A stretch of 64,000 nucleotides of DNA from Lentibacillus sp. Marseille-P4043 (lineage in GTDB: Bacteria; Bacillota; Bacilli; Bacillales; Amphibacillaceae). The position numbers were made by a program, and so were the translations under genes. The notes beneath the pieces were generated by a model. The model was not told where the DNA came from. It searched no databases and saw nothing but the letters and a program-made list of their open reading frames with translations. Location: positions 1,089,290 through 1,153,289 of the forward strand of contig NZ_LT984884.1 in the NCBI RefSeq assembly GCF_900258515.1, read 5' to 3'. Shown in pieces: positions 1 to 63,186 of the stretch (position 1 is its first letter; each line of letters starts with the position of its first letter).

Positions 1-186
1 TCCAAATAGTTGTTTGAAGGCGTAATCAACTTTTAAATCCATTAGTTGTTCTAGTGGAATGCGTTTAAGTAATTTTGATCTATTAATTTCCTGTTTTCGC
101 TTGGTGTATTCATTTCGATCTTCCATTACTTGAGTAAATGTAGTGTAATTAGTGGTTTTTTTAATCGGCAGTTCTACCAGTGTCAT
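1..186 (-). CDS. PD-(D/E)XK nuclease family transposase, N-terminal part (runs off left edge)
   Basis: Only the first 62 codons of this minus-strand gene are in the window; it starts at an ATG with AAAGGAAG upstream. Residues ~48-62 read LMDLKVDYAFKQLFG, the characteristic opening of the PD-(D/E)XK nuclease family transposases (Rpn-like, PF12784). The catalytic core lies outside the window, so activity and intactness cannot be judged. Related proteins are recombination-promoting nucleases or relics of transposons. The call rests on the N-terminal motif alone. Confidence 0.7.
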   Translation of the reverse strand, partial: MTLVELPIKKTTNYTTFTQVMEDRNEYTKRKQEINRSKLLKRIPLEQLMDLKVDYAFKQLFG

Positions 187-2197: not shown

Positions 2198-2297
2198 GAG
2201 TATTCCTCCTAATATAGCTGTATTGAATTTTGGTTGTTTTAATAATTTCGTAGTTGATATAAACTGCCACGTAAGTAGGGTTCAAAATTACCGCTAC

Positions 2298-2469
2298 GGA
2301 AATACACTACGCGGACCTTAGGGCAACGCTTCAGCTTCCTCGGAAGAAAAGCACTTCCTTGAAAAAGGAAAATTGCTTTTTCTGCGTGCGATGTAACGCT
2401 GCCGAAGCTTTCCTTGTCCTGCGGGATCTTCAGCTGTTGCTTTTCCCGCAGGAGTCTACGTGTATTTCC
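2298..2469 (-). repeat. GC-rich hairpin element copy 1
   Basis: Outer arms GGAAATACAC (2298-2307) and GTGTATTTCC (2460-2469) are perfectly complementary. The interior on the minus strand has the family words GACTCCTGCGGGA, CCCGCAG and GAGGAAGCTGAAG. A secondary inner hairpin is formed by TTCCTT and AAGGAA near 2352-2371. It is longer than other copies (172 bp) and more diverged internally. Confidence 0.75.
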
Positions 2470-2559
2470 TTCGCTGGTGTTGTGCATTAACATATTATTA
2501 CAACTTTTAATGCTTGATTTTAAGGAAATATTAAAGCATATGCATATATTTCCTCACAA

Positions 2560-2681
2560 GCAGCCCGTATACACGTAGACTCCTGGGGGATGAGAGGCAT
2601 AGGTGAGACCCCGCAGTCGCAGTGCGCCAGCACGAGGAGGCTCTCCAGCCGCCCCCGGAAAGCGGAGTGTATACGGGCTGC
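2560..2681 (+). repeat. GC-rich hairpin element copy 2
   Basis: Outer arms GCAGCCCGTATACAC (2560-2574) and GTGTATACGGGCTGC (2667-2681) are a perfect 15-bp inverted repeat. The core carries GACTCCTGGGGGA, GTGAGACCCCGCAG, GAGGAGGCT and CCCCCGGAAAGCG. The arm sequence differs from copy 1, yet complementarity is kept. Confidence 0.8.
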
Positions 2682-2767
2682 GGGGCAGAGAGCAACAAAC
2701 AATGTGAAACCAATATAGCACTTACTTCGCATTTTATATCTATTGTGTCAATAACAACCTTTTAGAA

Positions 2768-2817
2768 AGCTGCTGCCTTTTAGCAGCTCTGAGCATCCTG
2801 TAGTGTATTCAGGATGC
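2768..2817. other. Two consecutive perfect small hairpins
   Basis: AGCTGCT (2768-2774) pairs with AGCAGCT (2782-2788), and GCATCCTG (2793-2800) pairs with CAGGATGC (2810-2817). They lie just outside the composite element, downstream of gntP. Neither is followed by a clear T run on either strand, so the role is unknown. Confidence 0.5.
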
Positions 2818-5301: not shown

Positions 5302-5412
5302 TACTGAAAATAAATTTTGTTTCTTATATAATGGACTTAAACGAGAAACTGTTTTCACATTGCTTGTTGTTTTTAACCAGCAATAGATGTTGAAAATTGC
5401 AACGTACTATAC

Positions 5413-5470
5413 CCAACGAAGTGTATTTCTGTAGCGGTAATTAGTATGCACTTTTATATCTATTGAGTAA
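5413..5470 (+). repeat. Truncated right end of a hairpin element
   Basis: GAAGTGTATTTC followed by GTAGCGGTAATTA and TTTTATATCTATTG is the right arm and right flank seen at intact copies (for example 14345-14410), without the rest. It lies in the leader of the downstream regulator gene. Confidence 0.6.
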
Positions 5471-5525
5471 GAAACAAGAGTCTTTTGGAAAACAGCCAAA
5501 ACTAAGATGTAAGGGGAACGGCATA

Positions 5526-20120: not shown

Positions 20121-21424
20121 CGCATCGGCGCGAATCGCGAGAACATCGACGCGAAAGCAGAAACATCGGCGCGAGAGCAGAAACATCAGCGCGAAAGCAG
20201 AAACATCAGCGCGACAGCAGAAACATCAGCGCGAAAGCAGAAACATCAGCGCGAGAGCAGGAACATCAGCGCGAGAGCAGAAACATCGGCGCGAAAGCAG
20301 AAACATCGGCGCGAGAGCAGAAACATCGGCGCGAAAGCAGAAACATCAGCGCGAGAGCAGGAACATCGGCGCGAGAGCAGAAACATCGGCGCGAAAGCAG
20401 AAACATCGACGCGAGAGCAGAAACATCAGCGCGAAAGCAGAAACATCAGCGCGAGAGCAGAAACATCGGCGCGAGAGCAGAAACATCGGCGCGAAAGCAG
20501 AAACATCGACGCGAGAGCAGAAACATCGGCGCGAAAGCAGAAACATCGGCGCGAGAGCAGAAACATCAGCGCGAGCGATGAAACATCGGCTCGAGAACGA
20601 AAACATCAGCGCGAGAGCAGGAACATCGGCGCGAGAGCAGAAACATCAGCGCGAAAGCAGAAACATCAGCGCGAGCGATGAAACATCGGCGCAAAAGCAG
20701 GAACATCGGCGCAAAAGCAGAAACATCAGCGCGAGCGAGGAAACATCGGCGCAAAAGCAGAAACATCAGCGCGAAAGCAGAAACATCAGCGCGAGAGAGG
20801 AAACATCGGCGCAAAAGCAGAAACATCGGCGCAAAAGCAGAAACATCAGCGCGAGAACAGAAACATCGGCGCGAAAGCAGAAACATCGGCGCGAGAGCAA
20901 AAACATCAGCGCGAAAGCAGAAACATCAGCGCGAAAGCAGAAACATCAGCGTGAAAGCAGAAACATCAGCGCGAGAGCAGAAACATCGGCGCAAAAGCAG
21001 GAACATCGGCGCGAGAACGAAAACATCAGCGCGAGAGCAGAAACATCGGCGCGAGAACAGAAACATCAGCGCGAAAGCAGAAACATCGGCGCGAAAGCAG
21101 AAACATCAGCGCGAGAGCAGAAACATCAGCGCGAAAGCAGAAACATCGGCGTGAGAGCAGAAACATCGGCGCGAGAGCAGAAACATCGACGCGAAAGCAG
21201 AAACATCGGCTCGAGAACGAAAACATCAGCGTGAAAGCAGAAACATCAGCGCGAGAGCAGAAACATCGGCGCGAAAGCAGAAACATCAGCGCGAGAGCAG
21301 AAACATCAGCGCGAGAGCAGAAACATCGGCGCAAAAGCAGAAACATCAGCCCGAATCCGCGAAACATCGACCGGAACCCGCGGAAACATCAACCGGAGCC
21401 CGCGAAATATCAACTCGAGCGCAC
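20121..21424. repeat. 20-bp tandem repeat array 1 (61 in-register units)
   Basis: Unit AAACATCGGCGCGAGAGCAG. From 20141 to 21360 there are 61 consecutive units in perfect 20-bp register, with no insertion or deletion. Differences are almost all G/A transitions at a few positions (CGG/CAG, GCGAGAG/GCGAAAG/GCAAAAG, GCAG/GCGATG). A degenerate unit precedes at 20121 and three looser units (21-22 bp) follow up to 21424. The unit has no stop in most frames, so long ORFs arise on both strands; I consider them artefacts. The array fills most of the 1.4-kb gap between ridA and an MFS gene. Confidence 0.95.
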
Positions 21425-43020: not shown

Positions 43021-43605
43021 CCTACCGAAAGCGAGAACATCGGCCCGAGCGAGGAAACATCAGCTCGAAAGCAGAAACATCGGCGCGAGCGCGGAAACAT
43101 CGGCGCGAGAGCAGAAACATCGGCGCGAGCGAGGAAACATCGGCGCGAAAGCAGAAACATCGGCGCGAGAGCAGAAACATCGGCGTGAGAGGAGAAACAT
43201 CGGCGTGAGCGAGGAAACATCGGCGCGAGATGAGAAACATCGGCGCGAGCGCGGGAACATCGGCGCGAGAGGAGAAACATCAGCGCGAAAGCAGAAACAT
43301 CAGCCCGAGCGCGGAAACATCAGCGCGAGAGGAGAAACATCAGCCCGAGCGCAGAAACATCGGTGCGAGAGGAGAAACATCGGCGCGAAAGCAGAAACAT
43401 CGGCGCGAGAGGAGAAACATCGGCGCGAGCGCAGAAACATCAGCGCGAGCGCGGAAACATCAGTGCGAGAGCAGAAACATCGGCGCGAGAGCAGAAACAT
43501 CGGCGCGAGTCCGTGTATCAAAGCAAAGTGTTTTACCGTAACGGTAGTCCAATCTTCAATCTACGTCGCATTATCTATCATCCATGAAATCAAAAAGCAA
43601 CAAAT
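43021..43605. repeat. 20-bp tandem repeat array 2 with right flank
   Basis: 23 consecutive 20-bp units without indels from 43041 to 43500, plus partial units at both ends (43021-43040, 43501-43512). Unit CGGCGCGAGCGCGGAAACAT in this register, the array-1 unit with more GCGAGCG and GAGAGGAG variants. It is followed by GTGTATCAAAGCAAAGTG and the flank CGCATTATCTATCATCC (43567-43583) with AAAAAGCAACAA. To the left, 42950-42990 has a stretch (CTTCGCAACTCGAAGCTTAC) found inverted inside hairpin copy 3 at 14 kb. No coding potential is credited. Confidence 0.93.
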
Positions 43606-43679
43606 ATTATGAAAAGAACATTAAATATAGCCTTTGTATAGGTAATTTTAACTAGTATTGTAAAAAACCAAGGCCTTTT

Positions 43680-44806: not shown

Positions 44807-45010
44807 CGAATGTTTACCTCACTTTTTAATCTACATTTAGTATAATGAAAAATCCGCAATTTAACCATTGATTTCTGTGACATTTTTTGAGGTAAATCTT
44901 ACAAAAATGAAAGCTGTTTTGTAAAAGATTGGTCCTCCGATTACCCGCCCCATCGAAAACATTTGTTGTTTTTGCATAATAGATATAGAATGCGCAATAA
45001 TTACCGCTAC

Positions 45011-45115
45011 GGAAATACACTTCGCTTTCCGGGGGCGGCTGTTGAGCTTCTCGTGCTAACGCACTGCGGGGTCTCACCTAGGCCTTTCCTCCCCCAGGAG
45101 TCTCCGTGTATTTCC
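45011..45115 (-). repeat. GC-rich hairpin element copy 4
   Basis: Arms GGAAATACAC (45011-45020) and GTGTATTTCC (45106-45115). Interior CTTTCCGGGGGCGGCTG, GCGGGGTCTCACC and CCCCCAGGAGTCTCC, the family core read on the plus strand in reverse. Confidence 0.8.
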
Positions 45116-45194
45116 TCCGCTGGTGCTAGTGCGTTGCAATCCAATATCTATTGATGGATTAAATAACAAAAATTATAATCCATTTTTAATATAG

Positions 45195-45321
45195 TTGATT
45201 TCCGTTCCGGGCAGTCGACTCCTGCGGGAACAGCACGTGTCTGAAGACCCCGCAGCGGCGATTTTCCGCGAGGAGGCTGAAGCCGTGCCCGCGGAAAGCG
45301 ACTGCCCGGAACGGAAATCAA
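45195..45321 (+). repeat. GC-rich hairpin element copy 5 (23-bp perfect arms)
   Basis: Arms 45195-45217 and 45299-45321 are a perfect 23-bp inverted repeat (TTGATTTCCGTTCCGGGC... and its complement). Core: GACTCCTGCGGGAACAGC, GAAGACCCCGCAGCGG, GAGGAGGCTGAAGCCG and CCCGCGGAAAGCG. The arms are unrelated to those of copies 1, 2 or 4. Confidence 0.85.
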
Positions 45322-45650
45322 CGGAGCACTTACTTCGCATTCAAATTCCTCAATGCAGGATTAGCACAGCACTTATCTTATAAAAGATGAATGGAAGTCA
45401 CGCTAAAGTTGTGTCACATTTTATATCAACTACGAATTAAAAAGCAACAAACATTACGGAGCTGATATGAAAGATACATATCATCGGTTTAAAGCTTTGT
45501 AACATTTTCGTATGACGAACCAATAGAACCGCATAATACAAATGTGGATACGTTTATTTTATGTTATTAAACAAAATCAATCATCTATGGTAAACTTATA
45601 TAAGTGTGATATAGTTTTTAAACCGCTTACATATGAAGGAGGAACTACAG

Positions 45651-53523: not shown

Positions 53524-53797
53524 GTCGATCACACCTATGCTGAGTTATCGTTATTATATATGAGGTTTTTTTATTATCTATGAAATCATTTTTATGGTAA
53601 CTCAACTTTCGCACCAATAAAATAAGATCAAACATTTAGCTGAGTCAAACTTGGAACGTTTCTAATAATTGCCTTGTCAACCTTGGTAAATATAAAGACT
53701 GTTAAAATTGGGACTGCGATTACTCGCCCCATTGAAAACATTTGTTGATTTATATACAAAATGCGATGTAAATAAGAAATTGCTCCCTCGCCGTTCC

Positions 53798-57653: not shown

Positions 57654-57965
57654 TTAAAGTAAATTGCGATAATCTCTTCTTCCATCAACTATTGCATAAA
57701 TAATAATTGTCTGATCTGTCTCATTAATCTTATAAAAGACAAGATGCCTCTCAGCAATAACTACTCTAAATCCCTGCTTTTTTAAAACCGAATGTCTTGG
57801 CACACTTCCTGACTCTGGAAATTCCTGCAGACGATGGATTGCAGTTTCGATTGTATTCAGATACGAGAGTGCAATATCAACATCTCCGGAATCATCAGCA
57901 ATATAAAATATAATATCACGGAGTTGTTCTTCTGCCTTATCCGTTCGTAATATTTTATACCTCAT
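57654..57965 (-). CDS. RelE/ParE-family toxin
   Basis: Small basic protein of 103 aa beginning MRYKILRTDKAEEQLRDIIF, with YIADDSGDVDIALSYLNTIE, LQEFPESGSVP and the C-terminal VIAERHLVFYKINETDQTII, YAIVDGRRDYRNLL. The pattern fits ParE-type toxins (gyrase poisons) more than RelE mRNases, but sequence alone does not decide. Start at the ATG at 57965, which overlaps the antitoxin stop; GAAAGGAAAG is upstream. Frame is intact. Confidence 0.85.
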   Translation of the reverse strand: MRYKILRTDKAEEQLRDIIFYIADDSGDVDIALSYLNTIETAIHRLQEFPESGSVPRHSVLKKQGFRVVIAERHLVFYKINETDQTIIIYAIVDGRRDYRNLL

Positions 57966-58239
57966 CTTCTTTCCTTTCCAGTAAAGATGCACGAAGATCA
58001 TCAAATGAATTCTGTATGGGTGCTACTCGTTCATTTCTTACATCGTCCTCAGCATCTGCAAGTGTTCGTAGTAGTTCCAACTCCGATTTCATCTGATAAT
58101 AATCTTGCAAACCAAGAACCGCTGTATCACCTCGTCCTTTTACGGTAATAATAACTGCATTCCTTGAATCTTTGCACTGCTTAGATATTTCATTGTAATG
58201 ATTTCTTAAATCCGCTGATGGTCTAATTGCTTCCCCCAT
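57955..58239 (-). CDS. Phd/YefM-type antitoxin
   Basis: Protein of 94 aa starting MGEAIRPSADLRNHYNEISK, with NAVIITVKGRGDTAVLGLQD, the DNA-binding Phd/YefM N-terminal fold, and an acidic toxin-binding tail LRASLLERKEDEV. Start at the ATG at 58239 with AGAGGTGA; a longer in-frame start at 58275 has no RBS. Forms a complete module with the following ParE gene (11-bp overlap) and probably represses it. Confidence 0.85.
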   Translation of the reverse strand: MGEAIRPSADLRNHYNEISKQCKDSRNAVIITVKGRGDTAVLGLQDYYQMKSELELLRTLADAEDDVRNERVAPIQNSFDDLRASLLERKEDEV

Positions 58240-58383
58240 AGTGTCACCTCTTTCTAATTTTACCTTCATAGTCATATTGTATCATAAGGTGACTATTTAT
58301 TAAATGCTTTCTTCCTTCAACTTTGATGTATCTCCATTTAACTTCCCCCCATATTCCAGACAATGGCCCTTATATACGACTAT

Positions 58384-58563: not shown

Positions 58564-58664
58564 TCCGGAATTACACTGCGCTTTCCGCGGGGCGGGAAAT
58601 GCAAGTACTTATAAAAAGATCCCAACTTACTTCGCATTTTACATCTATTGTGTAACAAACAACT
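58563..58664 (-). repeat. Half copy of the hairpin element (copy 8) with right flank
   Basis: CGCTCCGGAATTACACTGCG and CTTTCCGCGGGGCGG are the left arm and start of the core; then GGGAAATGCAAGTACTTATA as at 54.1 kb; then ACTTCGCATTTTACATCTATTG and TAACAAACAA, the right flank. The central core and right arm are deleted. Confidence 0.6.
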
Positions 58665-58680
58665 CTTGTTGATGCTTTGC

Positions 58681-59765: not shown

Positions 59766-60950
59766 ATGTCAAAAAAATACAGTAAGTTTGAAACATCGGT
59801 CATACATGAAGGGTACAATGCTAAAGACATGTTAGGCAGTTTAACAACACCATTATTCCAAACATCGACGTATACGTTTGATACAGCAGAACAAGGGGAA
59901 CGCCGGTTTGCTGGGGATGAGGATGGTTATATTTATTCACGTTTAGGCAATCCAACGGTAAAAGTGTTAGAAGAGCGAATTGCTGCACTGGAAAATGGAG
60001 AACGTGGGCTGGCATTTGGTTCTGGAATGGCGGCTGTATCTGCTGTGTTAGTTGCGTTAACAAAAGCGAATGACCATATTGTCTGTTCATCAGGTCTTTA
60101 CGGTTGTACGTTTGGATTATTAACTATGATGCAGGAAAAGTATCAAGTTACGCATGACTTTTCTCAGATGGAGACGAGTGAGGAGCTACGATCGTTAATT
60201 AAACCAGAAACAGCCTGTATATACGTGGAAACACCAATCAATCCAACGATGAAACTGATTGATTTGGAGATGGTTTCACAAGTTGCTAAGGAATTTGATA
60301 TACCTGTTGTCGTTGATAATACATTTTCGTCTCCGTATTTACAACGCCCGATAGAGCTAGGGTGTGATGTGGTAATTCATAGTGCCACAAAATATATCGG
60401 TGGCCATGGAGATGTTGTTGCAGGACTAGTTGTTGGGAAGAAGGAATTTTTAGATTCCGTGCAAATGACGACACAAAAGGATATCGGTGGGATTATCTCA
60501 CCATTTGATGCTTGGTTATTATTGCGCGGATTAAAAACGCTGCCAATCCGCCTTGATCGACACTGTGATAACGCCGAAAAGGTTTTTGAAAAGCTGCGTG
60601 TTCATCCCAAAGTAGCGAATGTTTACTACCCAAATGATACGTCACATCCGGATTATCCAATTAGGGAAAAACAGATGAAGCGTGGTGGGGGAGTCATTTC
60701 CTTTGAAATTAAGGGGACGAAGCAAGATGCCCAGAAAATGTTAAATGCATTATCCTTTCTAAAAATTGCGGTCAGTCTTGGTGATGCAGAGACATTAATC
60801 GAGCATCCAGCAACAATGACCCATGCGGTTATTCCAGAAGAATTCCGGCGCGATATGCGAATCACTGATCAATTAATTCGCTTATCTGTAGGATTGGAAG
60901 CATGGGAAGATATTTGGCATGATCTAGAACAAGCGTTAGATTCCATTTGA
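59766..60950 (+). CDS. Methionine gamma-lyase
   Basis: PLP enzyme of 394 aa, Cys/Met-metabolism family, that cleaves methionine to methanethiol, ammonia and 2-oxobutyrate. The loop SSGLYGCTFGLL has the Tyr-Gly-Cys triad whose Cys marks methionine gamma-lyases (Cys116 in Pseudomonas). Other marks: DNTFSSPYLQRPIE, PLP lysine in HSATKYIGGHGD, and GDAETLIEHPATMTHAVI. A cystathionine gamma-lyase activity cannot be excluded. AAAGGGGAG precedes the ATG. Single gene with terminator; it sits opposite to rarD. Biosynthesis and breakdown of methionine are thus encoded within 5 kb. Confidence 0.87.
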   Translation: MSKKYSKFETSVIHEGYNAKDMLGSLTTPLFQTSTYTFDTAEQGERRFAGDEDGYIYSRLGNPTVKVLEERIAALENGERGLAFGSGMAAVSAVLVALTKANDHIVCSSGLYGCTFGLLTMMQEKYQVTHDFSQMETSEELRSLIKPETACIYVETPINPTMKLIDLEMVSQVAKEFDIPVVVDNTFSSPYLQRPIELGCDVVIHSATKYIGGHGDVVAGLVVGKKEFLDSVQMTTQKDIGGIISPFDAWLLLRGLKTLPIRLDRHCDNAEKVFEKLRVHPKVANVYYPNDTSHPDYPIREKQMKRGGGVISFEIKGTKQDAQKMLNALSFLKIAVSLGDAETLIEHPATMTHAVIPEEFRRDMRITDQLIRLSVGLEAWEDIWHDLEQALDSI

Positions 60951-61077: not shown

Positions 61078-61127
61078 TAATGGTTGAGTAGTTCTGTGCT
61101 GTTAAAAATAGGCTCATTTCGTATATT

Positions 61128-61485
61128 TTGATGCTTTTTAACCTCGTAATTGAATAAAATGCAACGGCTCTCCCGTCGTTTCGGGGCCATGTTTTTACTT
61201 TCGGGAAGATGTTTTCGCTCTGGCGCCGATGTTTTTGCTTTCGGGAAGATGTTTTCGCTCTGGCAACGATGTTCTCACTTTCGGAAAGATGTTTTCGCTC
61301 TGGCGCCGATGTTCTTACTTTCGGGAAGATGTTTTCGCTCTGGCGCCGATGTTCTTACTTTCGGGAAGATGTTTTCGCTCTAGCGCTGATGTTTCTGCAC
61401 TCGGGTTGATGTTCCAGAGAAAACGCCACGAAAGAGAACTTTCACTGTATCGCATTTTACATCCTTTGTGTCAAAAACAACAATC
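61128..61485. repeat. 20-bp array 4 within the same terminal flanks as the hairpin elements
   Basis: Left flank GCTTTTTAACCTCGTAATTG and AATAAAATGCAACG (61133-61166) and right flank CGCATTTTACATCCTTTGTG, TCAAAAACAACAATC (61451-61485) are the flanks of the hairpin elements at 2.2, 14.1 and 57.6 kb. Between them (61181-61420) are about 11-12 units of 20 bp that alternate between two types, TCGGGAAGATGTTTTCGCTC and TGGCGCCGATGTTCTTACTT, giving a 40-bp higher-order period. AACATC core is on the minus strand. Confidence 0.85.
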
Positions 61486-61743
61486 TTTATAAAACAGTCT
61501 AAAAATAATTATGATCGTTTTTCCTAATTGCTTTGCATATGTGATGGTTTCCAAGGAATGCTAACATCAATAATGTCCACGTTTGTCCGCATTTAGGATA
61601 GGTTCGTTTCGGAAATTATGTTCTTGTTTTTTACAACTACTGGTATACAATAGGAAGTTAGAGGAACTTTAGTTGGAATTATATGCTATATTAGATTTTG
61701 GAATGCAAAAATGGTATGTTCTGGGAGGAAGGAGAGGGTCTCT

Positions 61744-63186
61744 GTGGTTTTCGTCCCCTATTTTGTAAGTTTTGTACTTATTTTTAATATTGCATTGGCC
61801 CTAACAATTATTTTCCTTGAACGAAAGGATGCGCAATCGACATGGGCATGGCTAATGGTATTGCTGTTTATCCCAATAGCTGGCTTCTTTTTGTATTTAA
61901 TATTTGGCAAAAATTTAAGTAGACAGCGGATATTTACATGGGATACGAAAAGCAGGCTAGGTGTTAAAAAGTCTGTACAGTCACAACTACGTGCACTTGA
62001 GGAAAATCGCTTCATATTTAAACATCCAGATATAGCCGCTTATAAAGACTTGTATTTTTTACATTTACGAAATAATGATGCGATATTTACACAAGATAAC
62101 AAGGTAGATATATACACGGATGGGAAGGAAAAATTTGCTGCCTTGCTCCGGGATTTGGAGGCTGCAACTGACCACATCCATTTGTTGTACTATATTATCC
62201 GTTATGATCAACTTGGCCAGCGCATTGCGGATGTGTTAGTTAAAAAGGCGAATGAAGGTGTTGAGGTTCGTGTTCTTTATGATGATATGGGATCAAGGAC
62301 ATTAAGGAGAAAATTTATCAAGCGGATTCGCCATGCTGGGGGTCAAGTGGAAGCCTTTTTCCCACCGAAGATTCCTAAGATAAATTTTAAAATTAATTAT
62401 CGTAATCACCGAAAACTGGCAATTATTGATGGGCAGATTGGATACATTGGCGGGTTTAATATTGGAGATGAATACCTCGGCAAGGCAAAAAAGTTTGGTT
62501 ATTGGCGTGACACTCATTTACGTGTAACTGGAGATGCGGTTAAAAACATGCAAACCCGCTTTATATTAGATTGGAATCAAGCATCACGCAATGATATTTT
62601 ATATGAAGATCGCTATTATGCAGCGGTTCCAGCGGGGGATGTTGGGATTCAAATTGTCTCCAGTGGTCCAGACTCAGAATGGGAACAAATAAAAAATGGG
62701 TATATTAAAATGATTTTGTCAGCCAAGCAATATGTGTATATTCAAACTCCATACTTTATCCCTGATGAGAGCCTTCGTGATGCACTGCGAATAGCAGCCC
62801 TTTCTGGGGTGAATATTAAAATTATGATCCCCAATAAACCTGATCATCCATTCGTTTATTGGGCAACGTTATCCTACATTGGTGATTTGCTTAATGCGGG
62901 TGCAGAAGTATATATTTATCAGAATGGCTTTTTGCACGCGAAAACAATTATTGTCGATGGCAAAATAGCATCAGTTGGAACAGCGAATATTGATGTGCGT
63001 AGCTTCCGCCTCAATTTTGAAGTGAATGCATTTTTATATGACTCCATCATAGCGGAAAAATTAGTTGAGGCATTTAATCACGACATCACGCTGTCAACGC
63101 AAATGACAAAGAAATTATATGAGAAACGATCATTGGGAATTCGCTTTAAGGAATCTTTATCACGCTTGTTATCACCGATACTATAA
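61744..63186 (+). CDS. cls: Cardiolipin synthase
   Basis: Membrane phospholipase-D-superfamily enzyme of about 480 aa joining two phosphatidylglycerols into cardiolipin. Two N-terminal helices (~5-25, ~35-55), then two HKD motifs: NYRNHRKLAIIDGQIGYIGG (~219-238) and NGFLHAKTIIVDGKIASVGT (~397-416), the latter followed by ANIDVRSFRLNFEVNAF. Start is a GTG at 61744 with AAGGAG 9 nt upstream; the ATG at 61711 would place that RBS inside the gene. Full-length. Confidence 0.94.
   Translation: MVFVPYFVSFVLIFNIALALTIIFLERKDAQSTWAWLMVLLFIPIAGFFLYLIFGKNLSRQRIFTWDTKSRLGVKKSVQSQLRALEENRFIFKHPDIAAYKDLYFLHLRNNDAIFTQDNKVDIYTDGKEKFAALLRDLEAATDHIHLLYYIIRYDQLGQRIADVLVKKANEGVEVRVLYDDMGSRTLRRKFIKRIRHAGGQVEAFFPPKIPKINFKINYRNHRKLAIIDGQIGYIGGFNIGDEYLGKAKKFGYWRDTHLRVTGDAVKNMQTRFILDWNQASRNDILYEDRYYAAVPAGDVGIQIVSSGPDSEWEQIKNGYIKMILSAKQYVYIQTPYFIPDESLRDALRIAALSGVNIKIMIPNKPDHPFVYWATLSYIGDLLNAGAEVYIYQNGFLHAKTIIVDGKIASVGTANIDVRSFRLNFEVNAFLYDSIIAEKLVEAFNHDITLSTQMTKKLYEKRSLGIRFKESLSRLLSPIL

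Follow-up and report, generated by a model that had tools for sequence, protein, structure and literature searches.

A probable IS1595-type MITE family with exchangeable and inverted non-coding interiors in Lentibacillus sp. Marseille-P4043

The 20-bp tandem array at 61.1 kb of the analyzed window (64,000 nucleotides, bases 1089290-1153289 of contig 1 in a genome of 3.93 Mb) was found to make up the interior of an element of 389 bp (61111-61499), which harbors no transposase. Its terminal inverted repeats, named E2 and E1, are imperfect and measure about 56 bp each; a perfect 8-bp target-site duplication, TAAAAATA, frames the element at both edges. We regard it as one copy of a real, modular, old and high-copy family of IS1595-type MITEs, an explanation to which, taken as a whole, a probability of roughly 0.8 may be assigned. 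The features defining IS1595-derived MITEs are present, namely terminal repeats, an 8-bp duplication, the lack of a transposase and a large number of copies. Most likely, an IS1595-family transposase that is now missing from the genome would have moved the element in trans. AT-rich intergenic DNA would have been the target, with duplication of 8 bp, and since such a transposase should need the tips only, the interior would have been free to change. A modular non-autonomous mobile element had originally been predicted, which agrees well with the paired ends, the 8-bp duplications, the IS1595-family ends and the absence of the element at 19 of 19 orthologous junctions. The parts of the element and its neighbors are given below in window coordinates, with the strand where one was assigned.

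59766-60950: Cys/Met-metabolism PLP enzyme gene, left neighbor of the element
61103-61110: left copy of the target-site duplication TAAAAATA
about 61111-61165, plus strand: E2 terminus (left terminal inverted repeat) with the tip GGCTCATTTCG; E2 profile match of 32.5 bits at 61113-61165
61166-61188: shortened subterminal segment on the E2 side, labeled module 4 by similarity and aligned with element 761291
61189-61413, plus strand: 20-bp tandem array of repeat family D2, the cargo (61189-61394 according to TRF)
61414-61442: subterminal segment on the E1 side, module 1 (arm cluster 1), a module that also adjoins hairpin cargo
about 61443-61499, plus strand: E1 terminus (right terminal inverted repeat), which ends AAAACAGTC; E1 profile match of 41.4 bits, also detected by BLAST
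61500-61507: right copy of the target-site duplication TAAAAATA
61711-63186: phospholipase-D-type gene, right neighbor of the element, by its domain order presumably a cardiolipin synthase gene

The array unit has the consensus GATGTTTTCGCTCTCGGGAA and shows an alternating period of 40 bp. An open reading frame of 87 aa inside the element (61229-61492) did not give a Pfam match. The array is bracketed by flanks as had been claimed, and the repeats extend further out than noted at that time. The flanks had also been described as approximate inverts of each other. This holds true insofar as they form imperfect terminal inverted repeats, but they are two different ends. Read outward, E1 is TACGTCGCATTTTATATCTATTGTGTAAAAAACAACAATCTTTTAGAAAACAGCC; read inward, E2 is GGCTCTTTTCGTAATGTTTGTTGCTTTTTAATTTCGTAGTTGATATAAAATGCGAC. 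Common to both are the tip GGCT-TTTTC and, further inside, ATATAAAATGCGAC. Their frequency is clearly above chance. The E1 core CGCATTTTATATCTATTGTGTC was detected at 63 places of the genome with up to three mismatches (27 forward, 36 reverse), while the reversed core, which served as control, had no match on either strand of the whole genome at the same number of mismatches. The 63 matches were used to build the E1 profile, whereas the E2 profile was iterated from one consensus and yielded 100 matches (E<1e-3) in 704,780 bases comprising the window and chosen stretches, some of these matches being E1 ends. For 87 of 112 E1 end calls, 31 of which scored below 27 bits and were mostly internal matches to a 33-bp module, an E2 partner was located no more than 2.5 kb away. 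As seven E1 matches above 60 bits occurred in a further 400 kb outside the chosen stretches, the copy number in the genome, extrapolated from this 400-kb sample, may amount to about 120. By the boundaries placed here, the elements are 140 to 958 bp long. The module of about 33 bp (GGGACTGCGATTACTCGCCCCATCGAAAACATTTG) is contained in a long E1 variant and recurs in the form GGGGCTGCGCTAACTCGCCCCACCGAAAACCATTG at a single position of hairpin stems, and thus represents a nested insert in two contexts. It has 56 matches in the window and the chosen stretches, with the sites 44911-44999 and 53704-53769 in the window. Matches to the 38-bp profile of about 24.6 bits inside hairpins were rejected as E1 ends because they correspond to this module.

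Besides the element at 61.1 kb, the following copies, ends and arrays were located in the window.

2232-2774, plus strand: element with E2 left and E1 right, hairpin cargo
5347-5497, plus strand: short decayed copy of 151 bp with an E2 match of just 12.2 bits
14051-14435, plus strand: element with E2 left and E1 right, hairpin cargo
20142-21414, minus strand: long 20-bp array of the standalone type, without E1 or E2 ends within 250 bp
43036-43509, minus strand: 20-bp array 2; an E2 end is present only to its right
43565-43616, minus strand: E2 terminus right of array 2 (40.7 bits)
44912-45463, minus strand: element in opposite orientation with hairpin cargo, the long E1 variant on the left and E2 on the right
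53704-53769, minus strand: E1 terminus (long variant) adjoining hairpins at 53.8-54.1 kb (52.3 bits)
58628-58672, plus strand: E1 terminus right of a ParE/Phd gene pair (38.7 bits)

A weak end match is also present at 30.36 kb. From the flank positions, hairpin copies had been proposed at 2.23/2.73, 14.08/14.39 and 44.97/45.42 kb. Each of these pairs indeed belongs to one element, but the third one lies in the other orientation. The right flank reported to follow array 2 at 43.57 kb does exist as an end; it is, however, of the E2 type, and a left partner for the array was not found with the E1 and E2 profiles. Similarly, no E2 partner was found for the E1 end at 53704-53769. As to a further hairpin copy assumed at 57.55/58.63 kb, the E1 end at 58.63 kb is in place, but instead of an ordinary hairpin copy there are genes for a ParE-type toxin and a Phd/YefM-type antitoxin (57654-58275) with hairpin-arm remnants on either side. 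The flank at 57.55 kb is visible by eye alone and did not match the E2 profile at E<=1. Since the gene pair thus has a weakly E2-like flank on one side and an E1 end on the other (57.5-58.7 kb), the locus is possibly a gene-bearing cassette belonging to the family. Within the array and hairpin copies, no passenger genes were recognized.

Target-site duplications had been named in the original prediction as a means of checking it, and part of the elements exhibit them. After removal of E1 ends below 27 bits, 68 of the 87 pairs were kept, with E2 partners down to 12.2 bits; both boundaries were placed in 67 of them, and 66 had enough flank. A perfect duplication (8/8) was present in 12 of these 66 E1/E2 pairs compared to 0.6% of permuted pairs, i.e. 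all other combinations of a left with a right flank. Duplications of at least 7/8 were detected in 27 pairs, compared to 6.9% of the permuted ones. The 39 pairs that fell below 7/8 count against our explanation. Orthologous sites of the 61.1-kb element were identified through the gene on its left, by which 37 named loci were located (best protein identities of 82-88% to Virgibacillus, Lentibacillus and Ornithinibacillus, in a set from which records of close relatives may be omitted). The next gene was kept in 19 of the 37 loci, and none of these 19 junctions, which are 177 to 686 bp long and in some cases contain other DNA, yielded an E1/E2 match reaching 15 bits or any tandem array. In two genomes of the same genus the element is missing at the site, the intergenic DNA being too diverged for a base-by-base alignment. 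Elements located elsewhere in the fetched stretch were encountered at two of the 37 loci (L236 and L255).

The relationship to IS1595 emerged from the tips. The outer 27-30 bp of E1 and E2 match the exact ends of IS1595-family elements at the loci L123 and L124, which belong to relatives. The transposases of L124 (336 aa) and L123 (335 aa) reached 208.7 and 213.4 bits, respectively, with the NCBIfam model NF033547 of the IS1595 family (cut-off 75), and by eye both elements possess the ends GGCTGTTTTC...GATTGTTG as well as perfect 8-bp duplications (TTAATGAA and ATAATTAA). Altogether, tips matching at both ends were detected at four of 13 IS1595 loci, the weaker end showing E values of 0.09 to 0.9, while two loci matched partly (one is cut by a contig end) and seven were unconvincing. 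The tip matches are short and some are weak, which again counts against our explanation. Beside the transposase, L123 (725-1350) and L124 (2108-2344) contain extra small open reading frames, by eye one helix-turn-helix-like and the others membrane-like, which are possibly passenger genes. When relatives were searched for the flanks, as had also been suggested, the E1 consensus was found in 31 of 61 genomes including the own one (E<=1e-3); the counts per genome are to be read as "at least", since about 15 best candidates were scored in each. In four relatives (G002, G021, G024, G035), the E1 match and a PF12762 domain are separated by less than 1 kb. By contrast, PF12762 had no match in the own genome (G000) at E<=1e-3 and was not found in G003, G008, G022, G025, G028, G030 and G031, which are the E1-richest genomes among the matches listed. 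G054, E1-rich among the matches listed as well, showed a single PF12762 match below the cut-off, and five genomes (G006, G032, G036, G041, G052) have PF12762 but no E1 match. Thus, the number of elements and the enzyme are decoupled today, and as PF12762 does not exceed the cut-off in the own genome or in the E1-richest relatives, the copies have to be addressed as orphan miniature elements. Orphan MITEs are known, and we do not regard a cognate transposase in the same genome as a requirement. The element may outlive its enzyme, or some related enzyme might be able to serve it. A scan of genome contigs with a degenerate E1 pattern gave no match, in a collection that may lack close relatives of the own genome.

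ISL3 ends begin with GGCTCTTT and are accompanied by 8-bp duplications, for which reason the GGCT start and the 8 bp gave rise to our first guess, ends of the ISL3 kind and an ISL3-family transposase as the mover. The corresponding domain PF01610 is indeed encoded in 29 of 61 genomes, among them the E1-rich G022, G028 and G031. However, it has no match in the own genome at E<=1e-3, and matching tips (GGCTGTTTTCTAAAAGATTGTTG) at both ends were found at none of 30 ISL3 loci of relatives, where the single good match (L143) is one E1 end of the full MITE type. Four E1-rich genomes (G003, G008, G025, G030) lack PF01610 as well as PF12762 and therefore do not discriminate between the two families. 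With the IS1595 ends fitting, the ISL3 origin was rejected and appears extremely improbable. It is also very unlikely that the flanks and the center form a non-mobile structure with a function of its own, for example a bidirectional terminator or a structured RNA, and were spread by duplication. Such a structure would be compatible with the terminator-like hairpin that by eye precedes the element in several copies, and with the good folding of the one hairpin interior tested (14.1-14.4 kb), which surpassed 200 of 200 shuffles (z -3.7). It is contradicted by the 8-bp duplications and the IS1595 ends, and none of the 19 orthologous junctions holds a copy. Moreover, the array interior did not differ from shuffled sequences (z -0.9, 35 of 200 shuffles equally good), the whole 61.1-kb element folded no better than shuffles, and at the gathering threshold of Rfam nothing was detected in the window except a SAM riboswitch (RF00162, 57332-57449, minus strand, 80.5 bits). 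The structural reading of the array, proposed originally as an RNA/DNA structure with an interchangeable center, was dropped on account of these folding results, even though the one hairpin interior folds well.

That two types of cargo share one set of termini was confirmed for the IS1595-type elements. Applying fixed thresholds, 67 elements were classified into 51 with GC-rich hairpins, eight with arrays and eight others, which are mostly very short; element 380444, with the arrangement E2-2..1-E1, was scored as "other" although about four array units can be recognized by eye. Roughly 60 bp adjoining the ends on their inner side were compared for 143 arms (70 from E1, 73 from E2) and fell into seven clusters of at least two members (47, 38, 19, 13, 8, 5 and 2) and 11 singletons. 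Each of the resulting modules 0-6 was found beside E1 as well as beside E2. Hairpins as well as arrays are accompanied by module 1, but only arrays by module 4. Hence, the sharing of termini extends to the subterminal modules.

The order of the modules revealed that interiors occur in both directions. The eight array elements exhibit mirror arrangements, E2-1..4-E1 in five cases and E2-4..1-E1 in three, and other mirror pairs are 0..2 and 2..0 (six and eight elements), 1..3 and 3..1 (four each) and 0..1 and 1..0 (six each). Interiors of elements above 300 bp were aligned with a minimum coverage of 85% of the longer partner, which gave 17 pairs with the same and 14 with the opposite orientation relative to the tips; element 1150737, which is the 61.1-kb element, stayed below 85% coverage and was placed by its module labels. 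Orientation signs were consistent in all six interior families without any conflicting edge. Three families contain both orientations, the other three (four, two and two members) a single one. In the clearest inverted pair, 490598/2135283, the interiors align in reverse (87% coverage, 94% identity), but E2 and E1 are retained in the outer 40 bp, and in the four reverse pairs that were aligned the switch falls at the inner repeat ATATAAAATGCGACGTAA common to both ends. At the sequence level, the alignments show that whole interiors run in either direction between the asymmetric tips and that the breakpoint lies in this repeat. Intramolecular recombination or template switching has probably caused the inversion. 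That the E1 and E2 tips, some 40 bp, were exchanged by gene conversion around an interior which was never flipped is doubtful: conversion tracts could stop at the common inner repeat, and modules are widely shared among the elements, but tip exchange requires that both tips of an element be replaced, while a single inversion at the inner repeat explains 490598/2135283 in one step. In the own genome, the array-bearing copies resemble a single cassette in which the array is placed between module 1 and module 4, the arrangement seen in both directions. This cassette was probably formed once, by recombination of an element with an independent array family, and spread thereafter. Many independent captures of arrays by different elements are rather improbable. 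They would be in line with L113, a locus in another genus where about 17 copies of a related but distinct 20-bp unit lie between E2 and E1, and with the units of the own genome, which have close consensus sequences whether they are embedded or standalone. Against this, the eight classified array elements of the own genome show just two mirror-image arrangements of one cassette, and seven of them fall in one interior family.

Most arrays are situated outside E1/E2 elements. In the window and the chosen stretches, at least 45 arrays were counted from the best 40 of 151 candidates, and 36 have no end (at least 20 bits) within 250 bp. The AACATC strand (AACATCGGCGCGAGAGCAGA) of these standalone arrays corresponds to the leading strand, as deduced from GC skew, in 31 of 36 cases and to the opposite strand in five (binomial p 1.3e-5), though five of the 36 are clustered at 1.34-1.36 Mb, where the local skew is weak (0.02), and are thus not fully independent. 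The sign of the GC skew changes at 0.79-0.85 Mb and 2.85-2.88 Mb. Between convergent genes, 12 of 15 standalone arrays are oriented with the leading strand (binomial p 0.035), and the same polarity applies to seven of nine arrays near an end. Ten 20-kb samples outside the terminus half contained two more arrays, both agreeing in polarity, and ten samples of this size in the terminus half contained none; the three terminus-half arrays of the chosen stretches all lie near an E1 end. Arrays are present in five of 60 relatives; one of these arrays is weak (42-bp period), and the five include a genome of the same genus with two E1 matches only. The arrays form a family of their own, show a clear polarity with respect to replication and deserve a separate study. 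It is conceivable, though we consider it rather unlikely, that the elements act as non-autonomous carriers adapted to a flipping center, or tolerating one, having asymmetric IS1595-type tips outside, the inner inverted repeat as crossover and non-coding cargo inverted more than once, and that they take up members of the 20-bp array family and carry them to places and orientations in which standalone arrays are lacking.

The original statement that no named family has this design was too strong, since MITEs and mobile insertion cassettes also combine common ends with differing cores. The basic principle is therefore ordinary; unusual are the non-coding arrays and hairpins as interchangeable cores together with the inversion, and the asymmetric ends also set the family apart from an ordinary trans-mobilized MITE. 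In MIC231, one pair of IS ends surrounds cargo other than a transposase. Compared to such mobile insertion cassettes (MIC231 is cited in PMC6542083), the cargo is non-coding here, with the ParE/Phd pair at 57.6-58.3 kb as a possible exception. The elements share the tips GGCTGTTTTC and the duplication length with the IS1595 family (PF12762, PF12760, NF033547); according to PMC8101967, this family duplicates 8 bp of target and, except for the IS1016 group, has a zinc finger. The same source ascribes 5'-GG ends to Merlin elements, which are related to IS1595. Unlike IS1595 insertion sequences, the elements described here have no transposase, but long subterminal modules and non-coding cargo. Bacterial MITEs are characterized in PMC4133298 by the lack of a transposase, IS-like terminal inverted repeats and many dispersed copies, all of which is true for the elements of this family; two asymmetric ends, several interchangeable interiors and both interior orientations distinguish them from the usual MITEs. 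TIMEs, which are derived from Tn3, are non-autonomous with common ends, some mosaic cores and AT-rich targets according to PMC4133298, and resemble our elements in these respects. They differ by their Tn3-type ends, duplications of 5 or 6 bp and the genes or plasmid segments present in the cores of larger TIMEs (PMC4133298). The Bacillus cereus repeats bcr1-bcr18 (100-400 bp, bcr1 in tens of copies; PMC6542083) are interspersed repeats of Bacillaceae, too. They are set apart by description, not by sequence, as a TTTAT motif and a recombination-like mechanism are reported for them in PMC6542083. In the titles and opening parts of abstracts that were surveyed, the family presented here is not described. 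According to our results, many intergenic GC-rich hairpins and a minority of the 20-bp arrays are linked to a single kind of mobile element, for which the likely transposase family can be named. The results also suggest that recombination, replacement and inversion affect the interior of such an element and leave only its tips constant, so that describing these repeats as families of whole elements would be difficult. Apart from the elements, the window contains duplicated blocks about 6.6 kb apart at 24.4-38.8 kb, which by eye show motifs like those of peptide-type ABC transporter ATP-binding proteins.
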